Part shown: positions 1 through 1,657 of the stretch, in pieces | How positions within the stretch are numbered: the stretch's first letter is position 1 | Layout: every line of letters begins with the position of its first letter | From: Kiritimatiellia bacterium | Lineage (GTDB): Bacteria > Verrucomicrobiota > Kiritimatiellia > RFP12 > UBA1067 | Assembly: GCA_027858965.1 (NCBI GenBank) | Contig: JAQIBS010000244.1 | Coordinates: 1 to 64,000 of the forward strand | Length of the DNA: 64,000 nt | Direction of reading: 5' to 3' | Notes under the pieces: generated by a model | Database searches by the model: none | What the model saw: the letters and a program-made list of their open reading frames with translations, nothing else | Told to the model about the DNA's origin: nothing | Program-made: the position numbers and the translations under genes

Positions 1-176
1 TAAACCATCATCAAAGATAAGACATCTCTTGGTGTTATGCTTTTGATGCACCGCAAATTGAAACGACAGACTGGGACTAGGCGCGGTTTTACCCACAGAT
101 TTAGCGGAAGAGGCATAAACTTCAGCTATTATTTTTTTTACGATTATTTCGTCCTTTCCAATGGGCTGTAATAAAA
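1..176 (-). other. Left-edge region, no identified gene
   Basis: One minus-strand frame stays open from just after the DUF2061 stop to the window edge (about 58 codons). It has no ATG, although an AAAGGA stretch lies near its beginning. The translation matches no family I recognise. It may be the start of a gene with a rare start codon, or chance. Confidence 0.2.
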
Positions 177-404
177 TCAGATTTCATATTCCGGTATATA
201 ATTATGCTGTCCCAACGGTATCTTTATCCAGAGTCTTTCATGCAAATAGTAGAGCACAAATTTAATAACCAAATCAAAAGCGCCTATCGAAAAAGCGGAT
301 TTAATGGAACCTGTCACAAAATAGGTAATTAACGTCGTAGTTATACTGGCAGTAACTCTCCAGCTAATGGCTTTAACCAGAGTTCTGGTATGCGATTCTT
401 TCAT
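177..404 (-). CDS. DUF2061 small membrane protein
   Basis: A 75-residue protein of the DUF2061 type, a small predicted inner-membrane family of unknown function. It opens with MKESHTRTLVKAISWRV, followed by two hydrophobic stretches (about residues 15-33 and 37-53) and a charged C-terminus with LHERLW, as in the family. I chose the internal ATG because a CGGAG ribosome-binding site lies about 7 bases upstream; the frame extends 17 codons further but through the operator region. The gene is divergent from an Xre-type regulator, and a TATCAC-N3-GTGATA palindrome sits 34-48 bases upstream of its start, so the regulator probably controls it. Family recognition is firm; function unknown. Confidence 0.8.
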   Translation of the reverse strand: MKESHTRTLVKAISWRVTASITTTLITYFVTGSIKSAFSIGAFDLVIKFVLYYLHERLWIKIPLGQHNYIPEYEI

Positions 405-437
405 TTTCGGCTCCGTTCTCTTACACGAGCCACACAG

Positions 438-452
438 TATCACCACGTGATA
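438..452. promoter_or_regulatory. Palindromic operator, DUF2061 side
   Basis: TATCAC-CAC-GTGATA, with perfect 6-bp arms around a 3-bp centre. The arms are identical to those of the second site at 527-543, and the centres are 90 bp apart. It lies in the promoter region of the minus-strand DUF2061 gene. It is probably bound by the neighbouring Xre-type protein (inference). Confidence 0.6.
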
Positions 453-526
453 CATTAGTCAAGTACGCAATCCCCGAAATTTATAAATACCTATTTTTTA
501 TTTTGCAATTGAGGATTTGACGATTG

Positions 527-543
527 ATATCACTATGTGATAT
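527..543. promoter_or_regulatory. Palindromic operator, regulator side
   Basis: ATATCAC-TAT-GTGATAT, the same TATCAC-N3-GTGATA core as the site at 438-452 with arms one base longer. It ends about 25 bases before the regulator's start codon, a position that would block its promoter and suits autoregulation. Confidence 0.6.
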
Positions 544-567
544 ATTTGATACGAATTAAAGGACGCC

Positions 568-978
568 ATGATGAAAGAAGATCCCAAAGATAAATACAAG
601 TGTTCAATGGACTCAGAGGTCGTGAAGCGTATCCGGAAAAAAATCGGCATGACTCAAACGGGAGTTGCACATGCACTGGGTGTATCCCTGCGAGCTATTC
701 AAAGCTATGAACAGGGCTGGCGGGAGGTACCCACTAACATCATGGTCCAACTTCTGGTCCTGACAGCTGCCCATCACCCCTCAGAGGTTGAAAGAAAACC
801 TTGTTGGGAGATCACAAGCTGCCCCCCGGAACGACAGGCCCAATGCCCCTGCCGTCGCACAGACGGGAGCCTCTGCTGGCTGGTTTCGGGACGTATGTGC
901 GCCGGTGCTGCGAACAGCGGGTGTCATGATATTCAAGGATGTCTGCACTGCCCTGTGATTAAACAGATTCTGAACTAA
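568..978 (+). CDS. Xre-type HTH regulator with Cys-rich two-CW tail
   Basis: A 136-residue cytoplasmic DNA-binding protein. Residues about 15-70 are a Cro/CI-type helix-turn-helix (IRKKIGMTQTGVAHALGVS, then RAIQSYEQGWREVP). Residues about 78-133 hold nine cysteines, including CWEITSCP, CPC, CW and HCP, resembling the two-CW zinc-ribbon-like domain found in some small regulators; it may bind metal or sense redox (inference). Two ATGs stand in tandem; the second has the better spacing from the GGA ribosome-binding site, so the true start may be 571. Two identical-core operators between this gene and the divergent DUF2061 gene suggest autoregulation. Confidence 0.75.
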   Translation: MMKEDPKDKYKCSMDSEVVKRIRKKIGMTQTGVAHALGVSLRAIQSYEQGWREVPTNIMVQLLVLTAAHHPSEVERKPCWEITSCPPERQAQCPCRRTDGSLCWLVSGRMCAGAANSGCHDIQGCLHCPVIKQILN

Positions 979-1058: not shown

Positions 1059-1382
1059 TCAACGCAGCAACCGTCGTTCAAGAATCTGTTGCAACTCACG
1101 TCTGCCATCTAAAACACAGTGGACAAAAACATTATTCTTGTCTATCTCATAAATGACACGATATGGCTTATGGAGAACTTCCAAAAACATAGTAACATTT
1201 ATGCTCGCCAGCTCAATCGGAACATGCCCGCGAGCTGGCAGATTCTCAAGACTTAAGCACAGTTTCTCAAGCATACAAAACACATGCTCTGCCGCCTCCA
1301 AAGAGTCGCTTGATTTAATATACTGGTAGATATCAAATATATCATCTTCAGCATCCTGCAGAAGTAATACAGAATATGTCAT
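1059..1382 (-). CDS. parE: ParE/RelE-family toxin
   Basis: A 107-residue toxin of the ParE/RelE superfamily. It has the usual length and layout: a helical hairpin at residues 10-50, then LPARGHVPIEL, the core strand KPYRVIYEID and the final strand VFVHCVLDGRRELQQIL. ParE-type members poison gyrase and RelE-type members cleave mRNA; sequence alone does not separate them, but the conserved P-Y-R-V-I-Y and D-G-R-R block suits ParE. The start overlaps the antitoxin stop by 4 bases (ATGA), so the two are translationally coupled. The loss of the symbol would be justified if a search favoured RelE. Confidence 0.8.
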   Translation of the reverse strand: MTYSVLLLQDAEDDIFDIYQYIKSSDSLEAAEHVFCMLEKLCLSLENLPARGHVPIELASINVTMFLEVLHKPYRVIYEIDKNNVFVHCVLDGRRELQQILERRLLR

Positions 1383-1657
1383 GTTGCCTCATCAATTCTG
1401 GATCTTAGGCTTTTAAAAGAATCCGTGACATTCTTATAATTACCTTTGCTCTTACTTGCTGTGCTTTGAGCCAGGATTTTCAACAGATTCATACTCTCCT
1501 GCCCCTCTTCGTAACTACGCAGGTCCTGCACAACAACTTTAGCCTCTCCATTTTGAGTAATAACCAAAGTCTTTCGGTTTGCATGAACGTCCCTGACAAG
1601 TTCTGATGCATGAGCCTTTAAATAGCTGATAGGCTTTATGGATTCGCTTAACTTCAT
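1379..1657 (-). CDS. Phd/YefM-family antitoxin
   Basis: A 92-residue antitoxin. The N-terminal half (SIKPISYLKAHASELVRDV, RKTLVITQNGEAKVVVQD) is the Phd/YefM DNA-binding fold with its typical alternating helix-strand order; the C-terminal half is the charged, flexible toxin-wrapping tail. It would neutralise the ParE-like toxin encoded immediately downstream and repress the operon. First gene of the two, as usual in type II modules. The upstream 285 bp carries no other gene. Confidence 0.85.
   Translation of the reverse strand: MKLSESIKPISYLKAHASELVRDVHANRKTLVITQNGEAKVVVQDLRSYEEGQESMNLLKILAQSTASKSKGNYKNVTDSFKSLRSRIDEAT

Follow-up and report, generated by a model that had tools for sequence, protein, structure and literature searches.

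CysB, CymR and SurR couple reduced-sulfur status to cys genes, and SurR also controls hydrogenases; the three have LysR, Rrf2 and ArsR-type folds respectively, and to our knowledge none of them is an XRE-type helix-turn-helix (HTH) protein with a cysteine-rich C-terminus. The cysteine pattern CW...C...C...CW...C...C-x2-C is known under the NCBIfam name 'two-CW domain' (NF045718), a model without assigned function, and a search of open-licence papers for that name found no paper. We likewise know of no biochemical function for DUF2061 (PF09834). A described precedent for the DNA-binding half of such a protein is offered by the MqsA family (TIGR03830; PF15731): MqsA is a proven repressor that works at promoters, its own among them, and has the palindrome AACCT-N3-AGGTT with two arms and a three-base spacer (PMC4894380).

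The locus described here lies at the start of a window of 64,000 nucleotides from a Kiritimatiellia bacterium, beginning at a contig end (C99) of the host genome (G000). Its regulator resembles MqsA in HTH type, in a two-arm palindrome with a three-base spacer and in its predicted action at its own promoter, but the order of the protein is reversed, with the HTH first and the cysteine domain last, and it falls below the family cut-offs. It also has the two-CW pattern, at a score (23.9 bits) under the NF045718 cut-off of 35. We propose, at a probability of roughly 0.62 and on comparative sequence evidence, that the product of 568-978 represses the transcription of sulfur-assimilation genes in this genus, and of its own gene as well, a role that by analogy would be like that of CysB, CymR and SurR in passing reduced-sulfur status to cys genes. 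A search of open-licence papers found none on the regulator or its regulon, and the system, an XRE-type regulator with a probable cysteine sensor domain, seems not to have been described.

Two operators within divergent promoters

The initial annotation had pointed to two TATCAC-N3-GTGATA palindromes with identical arms, one upstream of each of two divergent genes, and to a Cro/CI-type HTH joined to a nine-cysteine domain in one product and a DUF2061 membrane protein as the other, and all of this holds. The palindromes are TATCACCACGTGATA at 438-452, upstream of the DUF2061 gene, and TATCACTATGTGATA at 528-542, upstream of the regulator, 90 bp apart from start to start; the regulator scores 30.5 bits on HTH_3 (PF01381; cut-off 23), nine cysteines are read in its translation, and its neighbour scores 70.5 bits on PF09834 (cut-off 23.1). 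The features of the locus are as follows.

1-113, no strand assigned: end of a multi-copy insertion sequence; its 24-bp terminal repeat matches the end of contig C66 at 23/24 positions
114-122, minus strand: AAGTTTATG, a 9-bp target duplication, also present on contig C66 beside the end of the element next to cysH
177-404, minus strand: DUF2061 small membrane protein, 75 aa, PF09834 match, likely start ATG at 404
462-434, minus strand: promoter-like TTGACT-17-TACTGT for DUF2061 (8/12 matches); spacer and first -10 bases are operator 1
438-452, no strand assigned: operator 1, TATCAC-N3-GTGATA, within the DUF2061 promoter
517-546, plus strand: promoter-like TTGACG-18-TATATT for the regulator; spacer and first -10 bases are operator 2
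528-542, no strand assigned: operator 2, TATCAC-N3-GTGATA, within the regulator's own promoter
568-978, plus strand: regulator, 136 aa, with a Cro/CI-type HTH (about 13-71) and a nine-cysteine, two-CW-like domain (about 78-134)

The mechanical open reading frame of DUF2061 extends to 455, where a start would overlap operator 1, and the ATG at 404, implied by the initial annotation, is the likely start. The two palindromes are the only exact copies of TATCAC-N3-GTGATA in the 5.93-Mb host genome. Given that sites with up to two mismatches number four in the window against 1.9 expected, the signal resides in the exact match and its placement and not in the loose pattern.

In both window promoters operator and -10 box overlap by two bases, a TA that closes the one and opens the other. 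A promoter scan alone is no proof of the regulator promoter at 517-546, since it found one where 0.8 were expected. In G001, a genome of the same genus, both sites show the same geometry (TTGACC-18-TACTAT and TTGACG-17-TACTAT), so that the operator occupies the promoter core at 4/4 divergent promoters. This is the geometry that a repressor would use: with the palindrome taking up the spacer and the first -10 bases of both divergent promoters, a bound repressor would exclude RNA polymerase, and the overlap with the core promoter of the regulator's own gene is what autoregulation would entail, binding being predicted.

The same spacing is present in the Armatimonadota loci L047, L051, L053, L152, L153 and L154, and the combined pattern TTGA-N6/7-NNYCAC-N3-GTGRTA-NNNT was matched 16 times in 35 genomes, its reversed control not once. 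Since these 35 genomes were chosen as carriers of the regulator and several of the 16 matches are the regulator's own promoter, the count speaks to geometry and is not an independent sample. Two of the 16, at G000:C113 and G064:C364, lie inside long open reading frames and were taken as chance. The full operator-promoter code fails in Desulfobulbales, as the pattern has 0 matches in 12 genomes of that group (G078-G089).

The regulator and its cysteine domain

The HTH of the regulator raises the possibility that the protein serves a mobile toxin-antitoxin module as an antitoxin-type repressor of the MqsA/HigA kind: the HTH matches TIGR03830 in 48/48 members of an alignment of the window protein with 47 of 80 relatives (A2), and a Phd/ParE pair (1059-1657, minus strand) is found just downstream. 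However, this is highly improbable for the following reasons: first, the regulator reaches 37.8 bits on TIGR03830 against a cut-off of 61.8, the match is confined to profile positions 59-123, the HTH half, with the cysteines coming after it, and the N-terminal CxxCG...CxxCG domain that in MqsA lies ahead of the HTH is absent from the regulator. Second, the gene that faces it across the operators encodes DUF2061, which is no toxin family, and no match to the MqsR toxin was found among five proteins scanned. Third, the neighbouring ParE gene has its own Phd antitoxin. The toxin-antitoxin module was rejected on the first two grounds, a score below the TIGR03830 cut-off and a partner that is no toxin. 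The downstream pair itself, directly after the regulator on the minus strand, consists of a Phd-type antitoxin gene (1379-1657) and a ParE-type toxin gene (1059-1382).

The C-terminal half of the regulator has cysteines at 79, 85, 93, 95, 103, 111, 119, 125 and 128. In an alignment of 42 domains (A3, 41 and the window), those at 79, 85, 93, 103, 125 and 128 are invariant (42/42), that at 111 is kept in 37/42, and 95 and 119 are not conserved. C79 W80, C103 W104, C125 and C128 are each invariant in 42/42, so that both CW pairs and the downstream C-x2-C are present, and 40/48 members of the larger alignment match NF045718 at E<=0.001. Pfam gave just two weak single-member matches among the 42 domains. 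In the AlphaFold2 model (mean pLDDT 84.6) the HTH is confident and the cysteines are surrounded by short helical turns; the model of the cysteine domain alone has a pLDDT of 71.9, and neither a solved structure nor Foldseek provided a relative for it. No relatives of the regulator were found in viral contigs.

DUF2061 and the sulfate-assimilation operon

G001 has its operator pair flanked by the regulator on one side and by DUF2061-cysH-(112 aa)-cysD-cysNC on the other, so that the pair precedes a sulfate-assimilation operon whose CysH scores above the APS-reductase cut-off and whose first gene is a DUF2061 relative of 75 aa (L006, 2172-2399). In the host genome, DUF2061 is at a contig end with an insertion sequence between it and cysH. 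With window bases 1-176 as query, 25 other places match over about 113-122 bases, most of them at contig ends, and contig C66 breaks off right ahead of cysH, within the opposite end of such an element, also multi-copy; each end is present some 25-30 times in the host genome, mostly at contig ends. Both flanks, in the window and on C66, carry AAGTTTATG, and an inverted terminal repeat of 24 bp is common to both ends. Given that 23/24 matching terminal repeats and a 9-bp duplication are the signature of one insertion, DUF2061 and cysH were once neighbours. The window contig and C66 appear to be adjacent, the operon being split at the start of cysH by the insertion sequence, an adjacency deduced from the repeat ends and not from a read across the junction. 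A first impression that the host cys genes lack control was dropped once this junction had been found.

DUF2061 is a full match to the PF09834 family in the window, G001, G025 and G049, and it adjoins sulfate-assimilation genes at 4/4 loci found in 60 genomes (host included), three seen directly and that of the host by way of the insertion-sequence junction. G025 and G049 have DUF2061 between cysNC and sulfite reductase and have no regulator, and no TATCAC-N3-GTGATA within two mismatches was found at their DUF2061 loci. Both the arrangement kept in G001 and this lack of an operator where the regulator is missing count in favour of the proposed repressor. Against control of sulfur assimilation, the regulator/DUF2061 pair occurs in two genomes only, and no operator with one mismatch or fewer was found at the second cysD operons of the host and G001, that of G001 having 2-mismatch palindromes only.

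The initial annotation had made its reading depend on conservation of the operators next to orthologues, and there they are conserved. Its observation of the palindromes was right and its interpretation, a small self-contained sensor-response unit, is partly supported: operators that recur at relatives argue for a regulatory circuit, and the unit is not self-contained, since DUF2061 heads the cys operon of the sister genome, the insertion sequence cuts that operon here and metY also has an operator.

metY and other operator sites in the genus

The degenerate pattern TAYCAC-N3-GTGRTA has three sites in the host genome against two for the reversed control, and 37 against 7 over 21 genomes. The third host site (L137, 3412-3426) lies just upstream of metY, whose product is an O-acetylhomoserine/O-acetylserine sulfhydrylase (TIGR01326, 633 against 495 bits); the site ends 33 bp before the longest metY reading frame and about 96 bp before its likely ATG. 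This single site could be chance, as the reversed pattern also has two matches in this genome. G001 has TGTCACACAGTGGTA at the same place, after TTTACA-18-TATAGT (spacing by eye), so that the metY operator holds the same promoter position in 2/3 genus genomes (0 mismatches in the host, one in G001). In G002, which has a close regulator, no TAYCAC-N3-GTGRTA within two mismatches was found at metY, which counts against the preferred reading, and a 2,508-bp stretch around cysD has one 2-mismatch site only; the metY of G033 has no operator.

It is improbable that the operators control just the regulator and DUF2061 and that the cys and metY links are coincidence. The window's assembly does have only these two genes adjoining its sites, and the reversed control comes close to the forward count in the host (2 and 3). 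However, the G001 operon and the conserved promoter position at metY argue against such a coincidence, as does the insertion-sequence junction that ties DUF2061 to cysH.

Other genus sites precede an OsmC gene with LarE further down and a glyoxalase-like gene some 240 bp away, both in G001, and a sulfatase gene in G002. Three G001 sites stand before genes for large or secreted proteins, for which control of sulfur assimilation gives no account and which count against it. Operator promoters before large or secreted proteins of unknown role are seen at L131, L134 and L135 (G001) and at L152, L153 and L154 (Armatimonadota). The host genome also encodes a 58%-identical paralogue of the regulator (L018/L156, G000:C183) with its own operator, TATCACCATGTGCTA, beside what we take, by eye, to be a TrmA-like methyltransferase and MiaB; the gene names mtaB, cinA, recA, miaB and dgkA were all read by eye.

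The initial annotation had tentatively suggested metal or redox stress. A sensor of zinc, iron or nickel, DUF2061 then acting in the membrane under metal stress, would suit the cysteine-rich domain, the nickel enzymes among sister-clade targets (see below) and the response of DUF2061 genes to iron or Fur in Caulobacter and Shewanella (PMC3751524 and PMC12442407), a response that also counts against the sulfur reading. Nevertheless, a metal sensor is unlikely: fhs, metF, metY and cysD are not metal-homeostasis genes, and metal stress was set aside because none of the genes that carry an operator in the genus was recognised as coding for a metal transporter or chaperone.

Distribution and targets in other clades

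The regulator is patchy, in 6/161 genomes of the order at E<=1e-10. A wider scan, with candidates found through one peptide pattern, turned up 97 relatives, of which 80 were retained; their loci come from Kiritimatiellota, Lentisphaerota, Armatimonadota, Latescibacterota, Desulfobulbales and others. Operator and regulator recur together in Kiritimatiellota, Lentisphaerota and Armatimonadota and more weakly in Desulfobulbales. At 25/82 loci the regulator gene has an operator upstream with at most one mismatch, against 0/82 for the reversed pattern and about 0.12 expected from shuffles. By group, within 300 bp counted from the tblastn match and not from a proven start codon, and with phyla assigned by hand, such sites are present at 4/4 loci of the window's own clade, 11/16 of other PVC or Latescibacterota, 3/3 of Armatimonadota and 7/59 of the remainder, where at two mismatches the count is 34/59 (shuffles 1.9, reversed 1). 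Desulfobulbales sites keep mainly CAC-N3-GTGGTA, and many of these loci retain the half-site GTGGTA some 55 bp ahead of the regulator gene. Next after the regulator, in 33/82 clustered loci, comes an mnmA-like gene for tRNA thiolation; these are Desulfobulbales loci (for example L064, L067 and L071), one representative having been typed by Pfam.

In a tree of 80 rows (L064 and L085 were dropped for want of a readable frame), the window regulator groups with those of G001 and G002 and with its own paralogue (support 99/93). Nearby, the Wood-Ljungdahl and CO-dehydrogenase loci fall in a 12-row clade (96/90), although the node that unites the two clades lacks strong support (86/55). In this sister clade, the regulator is separated by operators from fhs (formate-THF ligase) with a metF-type gene (MTHFR) at L030, L034, L035 and L038, and from CooC with CooS at L039 and L045. 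An operator also precedes a NiFe hydrogenase in L142 and in L041, the latter a long branch in the tree. Families were typed for L034, L039, L045 and L041 and assigned by cluster in the other sister rows. L139 has NuoE/NuoF-type genes and L138 cytochrome-NrfD genes. These non-sulfur targets of other clades count against the sulfur reading; targets point to sulfur supply in the window genus and to anaerobic redox enzymes in the sister clades.

This raises the possibility that the regulator is a redox or oxygen sensor, with an Fe-S cluster or disulfides in its cysteine domain, that represses oxygen-sensitive anaerobic enzymes and was later recruited, in the window genus, to the Fe-S enzymes of sulfur assimilation. 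The fhs, MTHFR, CooC, CooS and NiFe hydrogenase loci, the NuoE/NuoF-type and cytochrome-NrfD genes and the six invariant cysteines all favour such a sensor, which accounts for the sister-clade targets better than a sulfur signal does. However, the genus sites include metY, a PLP enzyme without an Fe-S cluster, and the sulfatase site and OsmC-LarE neighbourhood suit sulfur supply better. A redox sensor is thus a possible reading, at somewhat less than even odds.

Proposed mechanism and implications

The proposed repression of sulfur assimilation builds on the anatomy of the locus, on the way its operators and promoters are laid out alike in relatives and on what the target genes encode. A regulator dimer would bind TATCAC-N3-GTGATA through its MqsA-like HTH and repress its own gene and DUF2061-cysH-cysD-cysNC, and the site at the start of metY would bring sulfide incorporation under the same control. 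A shortage of reduced sulfur would alter the state of the cysteine-rich C-terminal domain and lift repression. The signal is inferred to be reduced sulfur, Fe-S or redox state; how the cysteine domain takes part in sensing is a guess, and conceivably it would lose an Fe-S cluster or a form bound to thiol or persulfide. The sulfur and redox readings may be one thing, provided that the domain has an Fe-S cluster.

In summary, DUF2061, a predicted membrane protein, gains a context in sulfate assimilation, and a regulator family whose cysteine domain has no assigned function gains a testable operator code and a list of targets. More tentatively, it is suggested that the two-CW domain may represent an undescribed sensor fold, which together with an MqsA-type HTH would define a regulator family in at least four phyla, reading reduced-sulfur or Fe-S status and using one TAYCAC-N3-GTGRTA code for genes of sulfate assimilation in some bacteria and for those of the Wood-Ljungdahl pathway, CO-dehydrogenase and hydrogenase in others. 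These phyla are largely uncultured, and the control of their sulfur and anaerobic energy metabolism has been little studied.
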